Shown: one piece after another, positions 339 to 45,467 of the stretch
Layout of the letters: each line of letters begins with the position of its first letter
Numbering within the stretch: the stretch's first letter is position 1
NCBI GenBank assembly: GCA_009783515.1
Contig: WRDI01000002.1
Coordinates: forward strand, 1-51,177
DNA length: 51,177 nt
Source: Bacillota bacterium
GTDB lineage: Bacteria; Bacillota; Clostridia; Christensenellales; Pumilibacteraceae
Reading direction: 5' to 3'
Notes under the pieces: generated by a model
Told to the model about the DNA's origin: nothing
Database searches by the model: none
Seen by the model: only the letters and a program-made list of their open reading frames with translations
Translations under genes and position numbers: made by a program

Positions 339-878
339 CTAAGAAGCACAGGAAAGGTTGTGCGCTTGACCGCAAAGCTCGGAGATTTCGTCCTTTTTTT
401 TTTCGATTAAGGGATTTGTTTTCCGTATTTTCCGTTTAATTATTTTTGTGTAAAGCGGATACACGATAGCGGCGGCGGCGCCTCCAATTATCCCAAGAAC
501 AAATCCAACGATAACTTGCCAGCTTGCCGTGATAGGGTCGGCGTTAAGCATAATCAGGCTGAGCCCGCCGCCGAATATAAGCGCGGCGATAATTCCCATG
601 GCAAGCGAGAATATAGTCGCGAATTTTGTCTTGCTTTCCTCCATATAAGAGATAGAGTTTATGCCGTCTTCGATACGCGCCTGCAAGCGGTTTAGCTGTT
701 CACGGTTTTTGATTGTGCGGTCGCGCTTAAAGGTCAGCGTCGTATACAGCAAGCCGCGCTCTTGCCGCTCGAGCTCCCAGCCCAAGCTTGTATAGCGGTT
801 TGCTATTTCACTTACGCTTCTGCCGTCCGTCGTTTTGGTCATATACTCGTAATTGCAGTAATTATTTTGTTGTTCCAT
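339..878 (-). CDS. Two-helix membrane protein, third gene of the ABC operon
   Basis: I do not recognise this 179-residue protein. It has a soluble, charged N-terminal half (about 1-82) that is probably helical, two membrane segments (about 84-112 and 120-143), and a basic C-terminal tail rich in K and R (about 144-165). It starts 14 bases after the permease stop, so it is almost certainly co-transcribed with the ABC transporter and may be an accessory subunit. An intrinsic terminator lies just downstream at 299-328. The ending GQAHNLSCAS shows no known anchor. Function is unknown. Confidence 0.75.
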   Translation of the reverse strand: MEQQNNYCNYEYMTKTTDGRSVSEIANRYTSLGWELERQERGLLYTTLTFKRDRTIKNREQLNRLQARIEDGINSISYMEESKTKFATIFSLAMGIIAALIFGGGLSLIMLNADPITASWQVIVGFVLGIIGGAAAAIVYPLYTKIIKRKIRKTNPLIEKKKDEISELCGQAHNLSCAS

Positions 879-892
879 TGTTTTTACCTCCT

Positions 893-1705
893 TTACGCTA
901 AATCGCGTTTATTCAATATCAGACCTGAAAGCGAGCCGAAGCCCACAAACCCAATCCCCGCCGCCAAGACGCACATGATCAGAGTAAGAACATTTGCGTC
1001 AAGCGGCACGGCGATGCTTGCTACCGGATAGAAAAGAATGCCCGCCGCGAAGGTCGCGATAATCGTCATCCATAGTTTTTGTTTAAAAAGCACGGCAAAG
1101 ATAAGGTACAGCGGCACAAACACGCCCATTAAAACCATTTTTGACAAAAGGCACATAATCAGCCCGTAGGCTCCCGCCGCGCCAAGGTCAAACGATTTGC
1201 CCATAATCGCGCCCGCAATTACCGTCACCAAAAAGTACGCTAATATCATGCACGCGCCGCCGAATATCCCCACGACCGATTTTGACACCACATAATCTGA
1301 TTTTTTGGCGTGGACGGTGAAGATGTTTTTTACAAAGCCGCTGCCGTAATCATGCGACACAAAGATGGACAACAGGAGGGCGGCGAAGATAAACACCATG
1401 TTGACGTTTGCCATATTGGCGAAGTCCATAAGCCCCGCCGTTGCGCCGCTTAGCCCCTCGAACACCTGCCATGTATTGGTGAAGGACTGTGCGTCTGCAC
1501 CTTGCTCCGCGCCGACCATGGTAAGCACCAAGGCGGGGATAAGCGCGGCTATGCCCACAGTGATGTAGAACGCGGGGGTGTGGAACAGCCGGTAAAAGTC
1601 CAACTTAATCATGGGTTTGACGCGGCTGAAAAAAGTCTTGTATTTGCCGGCTTCCTTAACCGCGCCCGTCTTTCCGTTCTTGTTGTTTGCGCTTGTCGTT
1701 TCCAT
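893..1705 (-). CDS. ABC-2 type transporter permease
   Basis: A 270-residue integral membrane protein with a basic cytoplasmic N-terminus (1-32) and about six hydrophobic helices (first near 45-66, last near 240-262). The arrangement fits ABC-2 permeases that pair with a single ATPase to export lipids, peptides or drugs. Its start codon directly abuts the stop of the ATPase gene, and its ribosome site (AGGGGG) lies inside the ATPase 3' end, so the two are translationally linked. The substrate cannot be told from sequence. A nearby two-component system with a kinase of minimal sensor loop suggests, by analogy, an envelope-stress or peptide-resistance role; that is inference. Confidence 0.85.
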   Translation of the reverse strand: METTSANNKNGKTGAVKEAGKYKTFFSRVKPMIKLDFYRLFHTPAFYITVGIAALIPALVLTMVGAEQGADAQSFTNTWQVFEGLSGATAGLMDFANMANVNMVFIFAALLLSIFVSHDYGSGFVKNIFTVHAKKSDYVVSKSVVGIFGGACMILAYFLVTVIAGAIMGKSFDLGAAGAYGLIMCLLSKMVLMGVFVPLYLIFAVLFKQKLWMTIIATFAAGILFYPVASIAVPLDANVLTLIMCVLAAGIGFVGFGSLSGLILNKRDLA

Positions 1706-2608
1706 TTATGCGACCCCCTTTTGTGACATAAGTTTAAGATAGTATTCTTCCAGCCCGATTTTTTGGAAGGTTATTTCGTTTATGTCGATATTTTTCGAGT
1801 ATAACAGCCCCGCCACCTTCGAGCTTTCGTTTTCGTCGTAAACGCGTATCCCGCCGTCCTTTTGCTCAAAATCCTTATATCTTTGCGCCAAAACGCCCAA
1901 AGCCCTCGCGTCGTTTCCGGTCTTGACGAAAACAAAGTCGCGGCACCCCACACTCATCTCGTCCGCCTTCATTTCCTTAATAAGCGTGCCCCGCCTGATA
2001 ATCCCGTAATGTGTGGCGATTTTACTTAACTCGCCCAAAATGTGTGAACTGATTAAAATCGTTACGCCTTCTTCGCGCGTCAAGTCAATCAAAGTTTCGC
2101 GCACAATCCGCATTCCGTCAGCGTCCAAGCCGTTGATAGGCTCGTCCAAAATCATCAATTTGGGTCGTCCCAAAAGGGATTGCGCGACGCCTAAACGTTG
2201 CTTCATGCCTAAGGAACAATGCTTGAACTTACGCCCCGCCGCCCCTGCCATGCTGACAAGCCCTAAGACGCGCTCCACCTCCGTTTTGGGGTTTTTGACG
2301 TCGAGGTTTAACGCCTGCATATACAGGTTTTGATAGACCGTTGCCTCGGGAAAGCAGCCGGGGTTTTCTATCAAAACGCCCATGCCGGAACGGATTTTCG
2401 CATCGGTATAGTGCTTGCCGTACAGGCGTATATCCCCGTTGCTTGGCACCAGTAAGCCGCAAATCAGCTTTTCGGTCGTGGATTTGCCGCTGCCGTTCTC
2501 GCCGATAAACCCGTATATGCTGCCCTCCGGCACCTTCATATTAAGGTTTTGCACGGCGGGGATGTTCTTAAAGGACTTAGATAATCCTTGAGTTTCTATC
2601 GCGTACAT
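1706..2608 (-). CDS. ABC transporter ATP-binding protein
   Basis: A 300-residue ABC ATPase. Walker A is GENGSGKST at residues 36-44, followed by a signature-type loop LGMKQR, Walker B LMILDEP with the D-loop NGLD, and the switch histidine in ISSHILGE. The region after about residue 215 is the usual helper domain of exporter ATPases of the BcrA/CcmA type. It is the first gene of a three-gene operon with the permease and a small membrane protein, and its ribosome site is GGGAG. No AACGTAA boxes are seen upstream, unlike the neighbouring genes, so regulation by the local two-component system is not shown. Confidence 0.92.
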   Translation of the reverse strand: MYAIETQGLSKSFKNIPAVQNLNMKVPEGSIYGFIGENGSGKSTTEKLICGLLVPSNGDIRLYGKHYTDAKIRSGMGVLIENPGCFPEATVYQNLYMQALNLDVKNPKTEVERVLGLVSMAGAAGRKFKHCSLGMKQRLGVAQSLLGRPKLMILDEPINGLDADGMRIVRETLIDLTREEGVTILISSHILGELSKIATHYGIIRRGTLIKEMKADEMSVGCRDFVFVKTGNDARALGVLAQRYKDFEQKDGGIRVYDENESSKVAGLLYSKNIDINEITFQKIGLEEYYLKLMSQKGVA

Positions 2609-2637
2609 GATTTTTTCTCCCTAATGATTGTATTAGT

Positions 2638-2944
2638 TGGTAGTTTTCAGTTGACGGTTGTCAGTTGTTGACGGTCACTTCTAATCCTAACGCATTATTT
2701 ATATAGCGAAACCTTTGGGTCAACCCCGTCATTGCGAGCGGAGCGAAGCAACCCAGCTAAAACCCAACCATTTTATGCGGTCAATTAAGCTGGTTTGCTT
2801 CGCTCCGCTCGCAATGACGGATACTTGCTTGCGCGTTTAGTGCCAATTTGCAGTTTCCAAGGCGCCTTTTCAGCCCTAAACAGTGCCTTCAACTCGAAAT
2901 TTGCATTGATAACTTCCTCTGATAACTGAAAACAGATAACTCCT
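2638..2944. repeat. Repeat-filled spacer with a 31-bp inverted repeat
   Basis: Gene-free stretch. 2638-2685 holds short tandem units of TCAGTTGACGGT type. 2728-2758 and 2788-2818 form a 31-bp inverted repeat with one mismatch, of the GTCATTGCGAGCGGAGCGAA type. The loop between them contains TTTTATGCGGTCAATT, a core also seen at 37600. A last tandem fragment (AACTGAAAACAGATAACT) abuts the 3' end of the next gene at 2945. Confidence 0.85.
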
Positions 2945-3304
2945 TCATACCCCGCAGTCGATCATGTCGATCAAGCCTTGCATGTTCGTTCTCATCTCGG
3001 ACAGAATTGTTTGGTACCCCTCAAGGCTTACTGCCTGAGCGCGGAAGGCTTTTTCCCTCTCCGAGGCGCGTTTACAGCCCTCCCTCATGTTCTTTAGGAT
3101 AGCGCGTACCTTTGCTTTTAAGCCCTTCGCCGCCCTTATGTCCTCTGTGCCCGGATACGGCGCGACGGCCCTTTGGTGCATCGCCTTGGAGGCGGTCTTG
3201 ACAAAAGCCATATTCTCTTTATTGGCTTCGTGGGTGGCGTGGGTACTCTCCTTAAACCCATCAATCACCGCGGCGATTATGCCCTTTTTGTTTTCGTTTT
3301 CCAT
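2945..3304 (-). CDS. Small soluble protein of the putative response-regulator regulon
   Basis: I do not recognise this 119-residue protein. It has no signal peptide or membrane segment, is rich in K, R, E, A and M, and is probably all-helical, with a possible coiled coil at about 60-110. Its ribosome site is AAGGAG. What makes it notable is the promoter: a TATAAT at 3350-3355 preceded by three AACGTAA-like boxes at exact 11-bp intervals, the same arrangement as in front of the response regulator gene (7286) and the membrane protein gene (4259). It is therefore probably a target of that system. Function is unknown. Confidence 0.7.
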   Translation of the reverse strand: MENENKKGIIAAVIDGFKESTHATHEANKENMAFVKTASKAMHQRAVAPYPGTEDIRAAKGLKAKVRAILKNMREGCKRASEREKAFRAQAVSLEGYQTILSEMRTNMQGLIDMIDCGV

Positions 3305-3349
3305 ATTTGTTTCTCCTTATTTTTAAGTCCGCAGACTGTTTACGTTTAT

Positions 3350-3402
3350 ATTATAAAGGTAAAAAATAAAACCAACGTAATTTGAATGTAAAATCGACGT
3401 AA
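3350..3402 (-). promoter_or_regulatory. Promoter with three 11-bp-spaced regulator boxes
   Basis: Written on the plus strand: ATTATA (3350-3355, the -10 of the minus-strand gene), then AACGTAA at 3374, AATGTAA at 3385 and GACGTAA at 3396, each 11 bp apart. The first box occupies the -35 position. Direct repeats at one helical turn are typical binding sites of OmpR/PhoB-type regulators acting as activators. Confidence 0.7.
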
Positions 3403-3410
3403 ACTTTTTT

Positions 3411-3523
3411 CAATGCACAGCGCACAGTGGCGGTCAAATGAAAATAATAATTTTGTAATTTACCTTGTATAGTATGCCGATAATTATTCACTGAAATTTA
3501 TCCTTCACTGTGAGCTGTGCACT
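3411..3523. repeat. Facing tandem arrays (CACAGTG type)
   Basis: Left array CAATGCACAGCGCACAGTGG (3411-3430) faces right array CACTGTGAGCTGTGCACT (3506-3523). The core is AT-rich and begins CGGTCAAAT. This is one of the paired-array repeats found throughout the window. Confidence 0.8.
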
Positions 3524-3536
3524 ATCAAACGGCGGC

Positions 3537-4259
3537 TCATTTCTTCTCCTTAACAATATAAAAGCTCGTATCATCCGGTTTCCTCTTGACCCACAGCCCG
3601 CCCGAAACCGAGATTACAAGCGCGCCCACCGTACCCACGATAATATCCGTCATCGTATCAATCAGCCCGCTGCCCTGCGCGGAATCGGTCACCAACGCGT
3701 TTTTGCCGTCGATAATAACTTCGGAAAGGCCGTCCTGCCAACGCTGCATATTTAACTTAAAAATCGCGTCCATCGAATACTCGAAGATTTCCCACAGCGT
3801 CAGCAGCATTATCGCGAAGCAGAACGAAAACAGCGCGACAAAAAAGGGCGAGAGACGCACCCCGTCCTTGCTCTTGCTGAACGCGTACACAATCGAAAAC
3901 CCGCTTAGGGCGATTACCACCCCCGCCGTGGTGTGCAAAACCTTGTCGAACAAAAATATGTAGTCGTAAAAGCGGTAAATTTCGCCCAAAACAAAGTGTG
4001 CGACAATAAATACCGTCACAATAATCTGGAAAAACTGCGGCATTTTAAGGCGGAATTTTGTGCGCGCCACCATGGGGATATGCAGCAAAACGACGGTAAG
4101 CACGCAAAGCAGGACGTGCTCTATCATTTTTTCTATCGCCAAAGCCCCCACCCACAGCGACGTAATCGCGCTGCCTATCATGGTGGCAAGCGTAAAGCAC
4201 TGGCAGATGAGATATATGACAAACACTTTTTTCGCCCCAAAAAACTTAATGACGCCCAT
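3537..4259 (-). CDS. YjdF/DUF2238-like membrane protein
   Basis: A 240-residue integral membrane protein with about six helices (near 11-36, 44-64, 76-94, 104-128, 137-158, 205-228). Conserved polar motifs lie in the membrane: FDKVLH at 104-109, WEIFEYSMD at 156-164, and a glycine-rich last helix after GLIDTMTD. The DK.LH, WE..E and D(x)3D pattern is what I associate with the YjdF/DUF2238 family of inner membrane proteins, whose function is not established. The ribosome site is GGGGG. Its promoter carries the same regulator boxes as the response regulator gene, so it is a likely target of that two-component system. Confidence 0.75.
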   Translation of the reverse strand: MGVIKFFGAKKVFVIYLICQCFTLATMIGSAITSLWVGALAIEKMIEHVLLCVLTVVLLHIPMVARTKFRLKMPQFFQIIVTVFIVAHFVLGEIYRFYDYIFLFDKVLHTTAGVVIALSGFSIVYAFSKSKDGVRLSPFFVALFSFCFAIMLLTLWEIFEYSMDAIFKLNMQRWQDGLSEVIIDGKNALVTDSAQGSGLIDTMTDIIVGTVGALVISVSGGLWVKRKPDDTSFYIVKEKK

Positions 4260-4293
4260 TGTTTTGTCCCCCTTGCGGATGTTTTACGCTCTA

Positions 4294-4346
4294 ATGATAA
4301 CGGGGGGAAGTAAAATAAACGTAACGCGAATATAAACTTTATATAA
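4294..4346 (-). promoter_or_regulatory. Promoter with four 11-bp-spaced regulator boxes
   Basis: On the plus strand: ATGATA at 4294-4299 (a TATCAT -10 for the minus strand), then GAAGTAA at 4307, AACGTAA at 4318, AATATAA at 4329 and a weaker TATATAA at 4340, all 11 bp apart. The AACGTAA box starts 19 bp beyond the end of the -10, exactly as in the promoter at 3350-3402. Confidence 0.65.
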
Positions 4347-4380
4347 ATTTTTTTGGTTCTTATTCAATCCGGCTGACAGG

Positions 4381-4530
4381 CGCGAACCACCGGACGGGCA
4401 ATGCCCGCCCCTACGTATGCATTAAACCGTGCTTGTCGGATTGTTACAGACCTTAGGGGCGACCCTACGAAGCAAGACCGCGAATGCTTCTTGCCAAGGT
4501 CTTATCGGTCGTCCGCCTGTCCGCCCAATA
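4381..4530. repeat. GC-rich intergenic repeat (GGGGCGACC / GGTCGTCCGC type)
   Basis: Contains GGACGGGCAATGCCCGCCCC, a self-complementary module, and TAGGGGCGACCCTACG with GGTCGTCCGCC. Related pieces occur at 10143, 31299, 43880 and 45408. No gene is seen in this 389-base gap between the genes at 4259 and 4649. Confidence 0.65.
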
Positions 4531-4599
4531 GTTACATATACCAATCTAATCGAATGAGAATCGATTTTCTGTCGTTTTTCATAAGGTTTTACGAAAGAC

Positions 4600-4629
4600 A
4601 AAAAACCGCCCCATATAATTACAAGGCGG
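4600..4629 (-). terminator. Intrinsic terminator after the 274-residue membrane protein
   Basis: Read on the minus strand: CCGCC, a 14-base loop, GGCGG, then TTTTTT. It lies 20 bases after the stop of the gene at 5473-4649. Confidence 0.7.
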
Positions 4630-4648
4630 CGGGACAGTATCTAATTTG

Positions 4649-5473
4649 CTACTTAAGAACTTTCTTGCGCCCATGGGACTTCAAAAACATTGTTAGGCAA
4701 ACCAGCGCGGCGCACAGGCTGAAAAAGATTCCGCCGATTCCACTGGCAATTTTCGCGTACTCGTCGGCGACAAAATAGAGGATTGCCCGCTGCGTAAGGG
4801 CGAGCGCAATCAGGGCGTTTGCGACGTCGGTCAGCCGCAAATGGTGGATGATTTGGCTGTGGTTTTTTCGTGTCCTTATCGAATTGATTGTGGCAAGCAG
4901 GATTTTGACAAACGCCGCCGCTGCGACAAAATATATAATCCAAAGCGTATAATTGCTTGGGTTTTCGTCATAAAAAAAGGTGCTGACTATTGCGAAACTG
5001 AAATGCAAAAAGGATATAACCGAGGCGCAAATGGCAATATTTTTGGCGCAGTTTTTTTCTATCTCTTTTATCGCGGACCGATTTTTCGCGGGTTGGTTTA
5101 TTGTGTTTTGAGCTTTAATCGTTTCTATTATCGTGTTTTCACTTTCAATAGTGTTGTTTTCGGCTATTCCGTTTTGCGTGGCTTGACTTTTTTTTGTCGC
5201 CTCGCTTTCAAGCGTTTTCACACGTGCGTACCTTTTCAGCGCGTAAAACTTGACGACGCCCAAAATCAAGCTGTATGACCCCGTAATTCCGATAAAAAAA
5301 GATAACTGAACCGTGCTGATTATCGCCGTCGTCAAGCCGTACGCAAGATTGAACACCATGGTCGCGAATATCACGGATTGTAATTTCGCGATGATTTTTA
5401 TATCAGACCAAAAGCGTTTCAATTTTGCTCTTGCGCCCGACCAAAAGCCACTAAGTCTTTCTTCGATACTCAT
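4649..5473 (-). CDS. Polytopic membrane protein downstream of the kinase
   Basis: An unrecognised 274-residue membrane protein. A cytoplasmic start (1-27) is followed by helices at about 28-52 and 55-74, a long charged linker with many N, E and T (about 80-140), and four more hydrophobic segments to about residue 262; the C-terminus is basic. It begins 30 bases after the histidine kinase stop, has ribosome site AAGGGTG, and is followed by a terminator. It is therefore the last gene of the operon response regulator-kinase-membrane protein, and may be the partner or output of the kinase. No family assigned. Confidence 0.75.
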   Translation of the reverse strand: MSIEERLSGFWSGARAKLKRFWSDIKIIAKLQSVIFATMVFNLAYGLTTAIISTVQLSFFIGITGSYSLILGVVKFYALKRYARVKTLESEATKKSQATQNGIAENNTIESENTIIETIKAQNTINQPAKNRSAIKEIEKNCAKNIAICASVISFLHFSFAIVSTFFYDENPSNYTLWIIYFVAAAAFVKILLATINSIRTRKNHSQIIHHLRLTDVANALIALALTQRAILYFVADEYAKIASGIGGIFFSLCAALVCLTMFLKSHGRKKVLK

Positions 5474-5503
5474 TGTCGCACCCTTAATATCTAAAATTAA
5501 CCG

Positions 5504-6556
5504 TTATAATATCGGAAGAATGATGATAAATGTACTGCCTTCGCCCTCTTTGCTTTGGACTGTTATTCGTCCGTCGCACAGCCGTACAATACGCTTTACT
5601 ATGGACAGCCCCAAACCGTGTCCGTCGCCCGTATGTGAGGCGTCGCCTTGATAATACCGCTCGAAAATGCGCGCCGTTACCTCGTCGCTCATGCCGATGC
5701 CCGTGTCGGCAAAGGAAACGATAATATCATCCTCCGTCCGTGTCAGCATTATAGTGATGTCGCCGTTTTTAGGCGTAAACTTGATTGCGTTAGAAAGTAA
5801 ATTTTGCCACAAACTTTCCATAAGATTGGCGTCGCCCTCGTAAATCACGTCGGGCAGCCCCGCAGACAAATTGATATTTTTCTCCGACCACGCCGTCTCC
5901 ATGGCAATAGCTATTTCCTGTATCTGCCGCCCGAGATTGTACGGTTTTTTGTCGGACACTATCTCCTGCGCGTCGATTTTACTCAATAAAAGGTTGTTTT
6001 TGGCTAAGCTTGCCAGCCTGTCCGACTCTTTGACGATAATCCCCAAATACTTTTTGCGCTTTTCCTCCGGCAAATCCTCGTCAAGCAGCATTTTTGCAAA
6101 GCCGTTTATACTTGCGACGGGAGTTTTAAGCTCATGCGAAAAGCCGTCGACAATCTCCGCCCGCAACCTTTGTATGCCCGCGATTTCCGCCGCCATTTTG
6201 TTAAAGTCTTCGTATATGCCCTTAAAAGCGGAGGCGTTCGCGGTGGGGATATACGCGTCGGTCTTACCGTTCGCCACGTCGCTCATGGCGGAGGACAAAA
6301 CGTCAAAGTGCTTATAAACAAAGCGCGCGATAAAAATCGTCACGGGCACGGCAATGACAAGCATAACGGGAATCATATACACCATCCACAGCGGGTCGTA
6401 CGTCCCGTTCGAGCCGTTTGCCGCGTTTGCGATATAGGCAATCACGCCGAACGCCATAACGCCGCCGACCGCGATAACGGCGGCAAGCAGCGCAAGCCAC
6501 TTGTTTATGTGCTTTGCAGCGTCGCTGTGCTTTTTCTTAACCTTTTTGTCTTTCAT
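5504..6556 (-). CDS. Sensor histidine kinase with a minimal extracellular loop
   Basis: A 350-residue membrane histidine kinase. Two helices (about 20-44 and 57-80) enclose only about 12 external residues (NAANGSNGTYDP), so there is no real sensor domain. A HAMP linker (81-130) follows, then the H-box FSHELKTPVASINGF with the phospho-accepting His, N-box NLLSNAIKFTPKNG, G1 DTGIGMS and G2 GHGLGLSIVKR. Kinases with such short loops often sense signals inside the membrane or through a partner transporter; the neighbouring ABC exporter or the 274-residue membrane protein could be that partner (inference). It is co-transcribed with the response regulator upstream. Ribosome site AAGGCGG. Confidence 0.95.
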   Translation of the reverse strand: MKDKKVKKKHSDAAKHINKWLALLAAVIAVGGVMAFGVIAYIANAANGSNGTYDPLWMVYMIPVMLVIAVPVTIFIARFVYKHFDVLSSAMSDVANGKTDAYIPTANASAFKGIYEDFNKMAAEIAGIQRLRAEIVDGFSHELKTPVASINGFAKMLLDEDLPEEKRKKYLGIIVKESDRLASLAKNNLLLSKIDAQEIVSDKKPYNLGRQIQEIAIAMETAWSEKNINLSAGLPDVIYEGDANLMESLWQNLLSNAIKFTPKNGDITIMLTRTEDDIIVSFADTGIGMSDEVTARIFERYYQGDASHTGDGHGLGLSIVKRIVRLCDGRITVQSKEGEGSTFIIILPIL

Positions 6557-6559
6557 AGT

Positions 6560-6614
6560 TACCGCCTTTATTAGAGAATAGAGAATAGGGGGTTAGGGGT
6601 TAGGGGATAGAGAA
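6560..6614. repeat. Tandem array between response regulator and kinase genes
   Basis: TAGAGAATAGAGAATAG and GGGGTTAGGGGTTAGGGG units fill the gap between the two genes. The array begins immediately at the TAA stop of the response regulator gene. Confidence 0.85.
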
Positions 6615-7286
6615 TTACCCTTTCAAAACGGCCTTGTACCCCAAGCCTCGTATCGTCACAATTTCAAATTCCGTTATGTGCTCGAATTTGTTCCTAAGAC
6701 GGTTGACGTGTGAGCGGATTGTCGTTTCGCCGCTGGGACAATCATAGCCCCACACGTCGTTAAGCAGCTTGTCGTGCGAAAATAATTTATTAGGGTAGGA
6801 GAGCAGCTTGTATGTCAAATCGAACTCTTTCCGCGTCATTTCTATCGCCTGCCCGTCGTAAACGGCCTCGAACGTCGTCGCGTTAAGCTTGAATTTACCC
6901 AAAACGATTTCCTTATCCGCCGCGATTTTTGAGCGCCTAAGCAGCGCGTCTATGCGCCAAATAAGCTCGTCAAAATTTATGGGTTTGACCATATAATCGT
7001 CCGCTCCGACCGAAAAACCGTCTTTTTTATCGTCAAAGCCCTGTTTCGCCGTCGCCATTATGACCGGCGTGTGCATTCCCATGTTGCGTAACTGCCGCAC
7101 AAATTCATAGCCGTTCATTCTAGGCATCATTATGTCGCAAACGATTAAATCGACGGTTTTGCTTTCGACAACGCCCAAAGCCGTTTTACCGTCCGCCGCG
7201 CTTACTACGTCAAATTTCCTTTCAAGTTTTGCCGTCATAAGCTCTCTCATGCTTTCATTGTCCTCAACGATTAAGATTGTCGCCAT
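6615..7286 (-). CDS. OmpR-family response regulator
   Basis: A 223-residue response regulator. The receiver domain (1-118) has acidic residues in VEDN (9), the phospho-acceptor Asp51 in VCDIMMP, a conserved Thr79 and Lys101 in MVKP. The C-terminal winged helix (about 128-220) ends with the typical SHVNRLRNKF and IRGLGYKAV. It is the first gene of an operon with its cognate kinase. Its promoter has AACGTAA boxes with the same spacing as two nearby genes, so autoregulation is likely. The predicted transcript start near 7298 leaves a 5' leader of only about 12 bases containing a strong ribosome site GGAGGT. Confidence 0.95.
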   Translation of the reverse strand: MATILIVEDNESMRELMTAKLERKFDVVSAADGKTALGVVESKTVDLIVCDIMMPRMNGYEFVRQLRNMGMHTPVIMATAKQGFDDKKDGFSVGADDYMVKPINFDELIWRIDALLRRSKIAADKEIVLGKFKLNATTFEAVYDGQAIEMTRKEFDLTYKLLSYPNKLFSHDKLLNDVWGYDCPSGETTIRSHVNRLRNKFEHITEFEIVTIRGLGYKAVLKG

Positions 7287-7304
7287 ACCGCACCTCCGTC
7301 TAAA

Positions 7305-7335
7305 AGTTTAGCACCCTAATATAAAATCAACGTAA
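7305..7335 (-). promoter_or_regulatory. Promoter of the response regulator with two boxes
   Basis: On the plus strand: AGTTTA (7305-7310, minus-strand TAAACT as -10), AATATAA at 7318 and AACGTAA at 7329, 11 bp apart. AACGTAA again starts 19 bp beyond the -10. The match to consensus in the -10 is only fair, which would suit an activator-dependent promoter. Confidence 0.6.
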
Positions 7336-7438
7336 AATAACCCGCCCTATTTGCGGCGAAATTATGCCTTGAGTCTGTGGACGCCGCATAAAGCGCCGAT
7401 TTTGCGAGTTTTATTTGTAAACTGCTTAGCTACAGCCA

Positions 7439-7475: not shown

Positions 7476-7551
7476 TGGTGCCTCGGGGCGGAATCGAACC
7501 ACCGACACAAGGATTTTCAGTCCTCCGCTCTACCGGCTGAGCTACCGAGGC
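7476..7551 (-). tRNA. tRNA-Phe (anticodon GAA), CCA encoded
   Basis: A complete 76-base cloverleaf on the minus strand. The acceptor stem is GCCTCGG/CCGAGGC, the D-arm lies around AGCCGGTAGA, the anticodon loop CTGAAAA carries GAA, the T-loop is TTCGATT, and the 3' end ACCA is encoded. A single tRNA with its own terminator; no other tRNA lies in the window. Confidence 0.97.
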
Positions 7552-45345: not shown

Positions 45346-45407
45346 GTGTGGAGTTTGGAGTGGGAAGTGAGGAGTGTGGAGTTAAGGTTGAGATTATAAT
45401 CGTAGGG

Positions 45408-45467
45408 GCGACCATCGGTCGTCCGCATCGTTGTAGGGCGGGGGCTTGCCCCCGCCGCGCTGAGAAA
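45408..45467. repeat. GC-rich repeat (GGGGCGACC / GGTCGTCCGC type)
   Basis: TAGGGGCGACCATCGGTCGTC and GGCGGGGGCTTGCCCCCGCC, two self-complementary modules. Same family as 4381-4530. Confidence 0.75.

Follow-up and report, generated by a model that had tools for sequence, protein, structure and literature searches.

Near the start of a 51,177-nucleotide stretch of DNA from a Bacillota bacterium of the family Pumilibacteraceae (GCA_009783515.1, contig WRDI01000002.1; hereafter, the window), a two-component system lies among genes whose promoters share direct repeats spaced at 11 bp. The window makes up contig C2 of the source genome (G000 below; 1.49 Mb, 140 contigs, 86% complete), from a gut lineage represented here by metagenome assemblies only. 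Every gene in the block 339-7286 lies on the minus strand, in the order regulator, kinase, 274-residue membrane protein, DUF2238-like protein, 119-residue protein, ATP-binding cassette (ABC) ATPase, permease and 179-residue protein. Three promoters in this block carry the same array of boxes, which recurs in two relatives at the promoter of the orthologous regulator and upstream of membrane or envelope genes. The features concerned, in order of transcription, are:

7305-7336, minus strand: putative autoregulatory promoter of the regulator gene, kept in relatives G032 and G043; two boxes, TTTACGT (7336-7330) and TTTATAT (7325-7319), and -10 TAAACT (7310-7305).
6615-7286, minus strand: OmpR/PhoB-family response regulator, 223 residues; Pfam Response_reg (PF00072, 6.5e-30) and Trans_reg_C (PF00486, 2.6e-18).
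5504-6556, minus strand: histidine kinase, 350 residues; HisKA and HATPase_c domains, His141 in SHELKTP, two transmembrane helices.
4294-4347, minus strand: promoter of the DUF2238-like gene; four boxes, TTTATAT (4347-4341), TTTATAT (4336-4330), GTTACGT (4325-4319) and TTTACTT (4314-4308), and -10 TATCAT (4299-4294).
3537-4259, minus strand: DUF2238/YjdF-like (Wok-type) integral membrane protein, 240 residues, recognised by profile-profile comparison.
3350-3403, minus strand: promoter of the 119-residue protein gene; four boxes, TTTACGT (3403-3397), TTTACAT (3392-3386), ATTACGT (3381-3375) and TTTATTT (3370-3364), and -10 TATAAT (3355-3350).
2945-3304, minus strand: 119-residue soluble protein, a putative target, with no family.

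Along the direction of transcription, each array is a series of TTTACGT-N4 units repeated at 11-bp steps in phase with the -10. The boxes start 48, 37, 26 and 15 bp upstream of the first -10 base at the promoters of the 119-residue and DUF2238-like proteins, and 26 and 15 bp upstream of it at the regulator's own promoter. The three arrays sit where an initial annotation of this DNA had placed them, including the one at the OmpR-type regulator gene, and the 19 bp that it gave between AACGTAA and the -10 is true of all three promoters. Its description of AACGTAA-like boxes at 11-bp intervals holds for the spacing; exact AACGTAA occurs only once per array, the other boxes being degenerate (approximately TTTAYNT). 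The promoter of the 119-residue protein is the best-scoring array of the window (43.6), and just downstream of its -10 a further AACGTAA box (3340-3346, minus strand) lies in the opposite orientation.

On its own, AACGTAA occurs in the window no more often than by chance (8 observed, 10.7 expected), as would be anticipated if the repeats were a chance periodicity of AT-rich DNA. The signal therefore lies in the tandem spacing and the fixed phase to the -10. In genome-wide pattern searches, we combined the box at -26, the box at -15 and the -10 in one expression, TTACGN5TTTANNTN8TANNNT, with the reversed pattern as control. It matched three times in the source genome, at exactly the three promoters, and the control matched nowhere; across 74 family genomes the control gave 26 matches, or 0.35 per genome. 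A four-box pattern was found twice in the source genome (both at the locus), once in G043 and in no control. Thus, in the full-genome scan that the initial annotation had proposed, the arrays are confined to the locus and not scattered. Seven further matches of the phase-fixed pattern in the family lack upstream boxes, the sole extra match in an order-wide scan of 396 genomes (G118) falls within a coding frame and is ascribed to chance, and additional sites in the source genome that appear when two mismatches are allowed occur at the control rate.

Conservation provides a separate line of evidence. Two other members of the family, G032 and G043, possess an orthologous regulator. The nearest named relative with the system is G032, a termite-gut assembly (Bacillota bacterium Emb289P3bin92) whose sample code Emb289 denotes Embiratermes neotenicus (PMC7024585). 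Its regulator, on contig C134, is 83% identical and is preceded by TTTACGTTGAT TTTAGATTCGC CTGT-TACAAT. Between the regulator promoters of G000 and G032, 13 of 14 box positions are identical, against 10 of 40 in the 40 bp upstream. The G032 DUF2238-like gene (72%) lies on a different contig, C13, as the first gene of one operon with an ABC ATPase and permease, and its promoter bears four boxes in the same phase. Held out of training, this promoter scored 34.6, where the next of 952 G032 windows scored 11.5 and none of 20,000 Markov shuffles reached its score; the promoter region of a G032 paralogue scored 1.9. In G043 the regulator is 52% identical. Two boxes precede its gene, and four in-phase boxes overlap the end of the kinase gene and precede an operon encoding a GT4 glycosyltransferase, PlsY and a CmpB-like protein; exact matches to TTTACGWN4TTTACAT in that genome occur only at these two sites. 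The boxes are thus conserved in relatives, even at a target promoter unlinked to the regulator, and across the three genomes seven promoters share the phase and the exact 11-bp spacing. Given phase-fixed matches that are both unique to the locus and conserved, and a held-out promoter that shuffling does not reproduce, we regard chance periodicity as exceedingly improbable. A separate triple box at 11-bp steps in G032 (contig C20, 15673-15701), on the rnpA strand and approximately 58-80 bp upstream of a consensus promoter, is off by one in phase relative to the other sites; it is left unexplained and is possibly a further G032 site.

The array is accompanied by one type of regulator. The window protein has the receiver and winged-helix domains of the OmpR/PhoB family, with phospho-acceptor Asp51, and its putative sites have the 7-bp motif and 4-bp spacer seen in that family. 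In a tree of 35 regulators, those of G000, G032 and G043 form one clade (100/99) with the recognition helix T-[IL]-R-[ST]-H, whereas the remaining 32 carry D, N, T or V at the position of Arg191 (in TTIRSHVNRLR in the window). The next best regulator in named genomes beyond the family has 48% identity and is not part of the clade. Base contacts in Mycobacterium tuberculosis PhoP are made by recognition-helix residues (PMC4832192), and, as judged by eye, its Glu215 occupies the same place as Arg191. Because the arrays accompany one regulator clade with its own helix type, box and recognition helix are inherited together. A different regulator could nonetheless bind the boxes, with the adjacent OmpR-type gene merely one of its targets, and the source genome does encode further OmpR-like regulators (10 matches in all). 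We find this very unlikely: the three genomes that carry this clade have arrays, each with one at the regulator's own promoter; the clade has a helix of its own; and G021, which encodes a DUF2238-like protein (53%) but no regulator orthologue, shows no array within the available 91 bp.

How the regulator might act is suggested by the layout of the promoters. No -35 with more than three of six matches was found at spacings of 15-19 bp in any of the seven. In the Escherichia coli genome, the two PHO-box units of phoA begin 28 and 17 bp upstream of the -10, as compared with 26 and 15 bp here, and binding sites of PhoB extend over the -35 (PMC3348028). From the missing -35 and the resemblance to phoA we infer activation of the PhoB kind. 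The phosphorylated regulator would bind the TTTACGT-N4 units head-to-tail, every 11 bp, with one box over the -35 position (the -26 box) and one in the spacer, substituting for the missing -35 and recruiting RNA polymerase as PhoB does. The regulator's own promoter would then present one dimer site (two boxes) and the target promoters two tandem dimer sites (four boxes). M. tuberculosis PhoP requires exactly 4 bp between its 7-bp motifs and binds three or four motifs more tightly than two (PMC4832192), which suggests that the two-box and four-box promoters may respond at different thresholds. The same geometry could also serve a repressor that blocks polymerase until phosphorylation, or its loss, relieves it. 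Boxes do cover the -35, with one within the -35/-10 spacer, in all seven promoters. Yet none of these promoters has a -35 usable without an activator, the layout is within 2 bp of that of PhoB-activated phoA, and the four-box sites reach further upstream than a repressor would require; we thus consider repression unlikely.

The likeness to phosphate regulators extends to E. coli PhoB and Bacillus subtilis PhoP, with their direct repeats of 7 + 4 bp and, for PhoB, sites over the -35. The box geometry equals that of a PHO box of two 11-nt units (PMC4415409), and the nearest NCBIfam models of regulator and kinase include PhoB and PnpS/PhoR. Were this the phosphate (Pho) regulator of the lineage, the boxes would be its PHO boxes. 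Such an identity is, in our estimation, highly doubtful. The scores lie far under the equivalog cut-offs (PhoB 168 of 296 bits, PnpS 215 of 400), the PHO box reads CTGTCAT where TTTACGT is found here, and the recognition helix has Arg191 in place of the usual Asp. Furthermore, the targets are not phosphate genes, and the pstB genes lie on contigs C5 and C69 without a pattern match, all three matches in the genome (assembly 86% complete) being on C2. M. tuberculosis PhoP is alike in its 7-bp motifs, 4-bp spacer and tandem dimers, but differs in motif (TCACAGC) and regulon.

Taken together, these observations support the reading of the initial annotation and make it highly probable that the two-component system switches on its own gene and a few membrane or envelope operons close by, in the manner of PhoB, and a small gene-control circuit of familiar type is well supported as judged from sequence. 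In the source genome its targets would be the DUF2238-like and 119-residue proteins. Several points weigh against this view. Since the window promoters supplied the pattern in the first place, the sites in G032 and G043 are the only independent ones. The system is sporadic, found by pattern in 3 of 74 family genomes, and the one other genome of the genus has no regulator orthologue (best match 37%). The genomes are incomplete, and with the source assembly at 86% completeness further targets may be missing. Having no orthologue to confirm it, the 119-residue protein is counted as a target from its promoter, while the ABC operon discussed below has no array of its own in the window and is separated from the 119-residue gene by 336 bp containing a strong hairpin. 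Against these may be set a regulon that was read from raw sequence and has withstood independent tests: its boxes are conserved, a held-out promoter unlinked to the regulator was recovered, and a single regulator clade is inherited with it. Its prediction is simple: one regulator, seven promoters, one box. If correct, the fixed design of two boxes for self and four for targets would set different response thresholds. A tRNA-Phe gene (GAA; 7476-7551) lies directly upstream of the regulator promoter, and given the sporadic occurrence of the system among family members, its tRNA-linked acquisition is possible.

Almost none of the kinase would lie outside the cell, as the initial annotation had recognised and three orthologues now bear out. 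By hydropathy, its two transmembrane helices are separated by about 7-14 residues, with segments at 17-46/54-82, 18-49/57-84 and 11-48/48-72 in the three orthologues. This fits the definition of an intramembrane-sensing kinase, which has two transmembrane helices, a linker of fewer than 25 residues and no extracytoplasmic domain (PMC4388633). Because almost none of it is extracytoplasmic, the kinase probably detects a change in or at the membrane, and the signal may be membrane or envelope stress. The nearest working analogue is SaeRS of Staphylococcus aureus, in which an intramembrane-sensing kinase with a nine-residue linker is paired with an OmpR-type regulator bound to direct repeats, GTTAAN6GTTAA, at 11 bp (PMC4388633, PMC5083920). 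Both systems thus join a short-loop kinase to 11-bp direct repeats. The likeness is one of these features; box letters and controlled genes differ, and, unlike in SaeRS, no auxiliary proteins resembling SaeP or SaeQ were recognised at the window system.

One putative target encodes the DUF2238-like protein. The label YjdF/DUF2238-like, given in the initial annotation, stands at profile level and fails by Pfam cut-off: the window protein gave no match in a Pfam search for DUF2238 (PF09997), and homologues 44% identical to it match at 17.8-20.3 bits against a cut-off of 26.4. With hhalign, its family aligns to a YjdF set at E 6.3e-22 and to E. coli YjdF alone at 1.8e-5, over the motifs DKxxH, ExxE and DTxxD. 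DUF2238 belongs to the Wok family of the Lipocone superfamily, predicted enzymes of membrane lipid head groups, some of which are proposed to be cardiolipin synthases (PMC12419801). The window protein shares these motifs with E. coli YjdF but lies below the Pfam cut-off, and its enzymatic role is a prediction; a single-sequence structural model (mean predicted local distance difference test, pLDDT, 54) was not used. For the 119-residue protein, the earlier description as soluble agrees with our analysis, which predicted no membrane helix; searches found no family or phage match, nor a convincing homologue in 101 genomes; its model (pLDDT 64) was likewise not used.

Other genes of the block may belong to the same circuit:

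4649-5473, minus strand: membrane protein of 274 residues with no family, encoded third in the regulator-kinase operon.
1706-2608, minus strand: ABC ATPase, a probable regulon member by synteny; nearest NCBIfam model of lantibiotic-protection type, below cut-off.
893-1705, minus strand: ABC-2 type permease, 270 residues, PF12730 (ABC2_membrane_4); a probable regulon member by synteny.

The ATPase is 74% identical to that directly behind the DUF2238-like gene in G032, and the permease 75.5% identical to its G032 counterpart. The transporter genes, overlooked in the initial annotation, are thus probably members of the regulon, and would be transcribed by read-through from the 119-residue or DUF2238-like promoter. 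Two-component systems adjoining ABC transporters are familiar from BceRS-BceAB and CprRK-CprABC, the Bce kinases being intramembrane-sensing (PMC3023708, PMC5786555). LanFEG/Cpr types, however, have two permease genes where one was found in the window, and the window kinase, unlike Bce kinases, has by eye a HAMP-like stretch. A BceRS-BceAB module was rejected: the 270-residue ABC2_membrane_4 permease is not of the BceB type, which has 10 transmembrane helices and a large extracellular domain. The transporter and the 274-residue membrane protein, whose gene is absent from the G032 regulator locus, are candidates for the accessory sensing component that intramembrane-sensing kinases require.

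It is tempting to speculate on what these targets share. A DUF2238/Wok-type protein and ABC transporter occur in two genomes; in the third, PlsY accompanies a glycolipid-type glycosyltransferase whose nearest NCBIfam model, well below cut-off, is the lipoteichoic acid glycolipid-anchor enzyme IagA/BgsA. Membrane lipid or envelope would seem to be the common theme. That a system with its own type of recognition helix governs remodelling of membrane lipid head groups is a tentative proposal, which we hold to be possible though rather doubtful. The regulon links DUF2238/Wok proteins, uncharacterised, widespread and proposed as lipid head-group modifiers, to a membrane-sensing type of kinase, and the lipid reading, if true, would open a physiological route to DUF2238, a family without a proven function.

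Further features of the block deserve brief mention. A strong inverted repeat (2726-2820; 36-nt arms, 94% complementary, CCGTCATTGCGAGCGGAGCGAAGC...) lies between the 119-residue gene and the ABC ATPase; it resembles a terminator or else a mobile or repeated element. After the permease, a two-helix membrane protein of 179 residues (339-878, minus strand), weakly like the C-terminal domain of DUF2207, could be a third gene of the transporter operon. Finally, GC-rich intergenic stretches at 4380-4550 and 45380-45430 are alike (GGGGCGACC / GGTCGTCCGC) and are probably a dispersed repeat.

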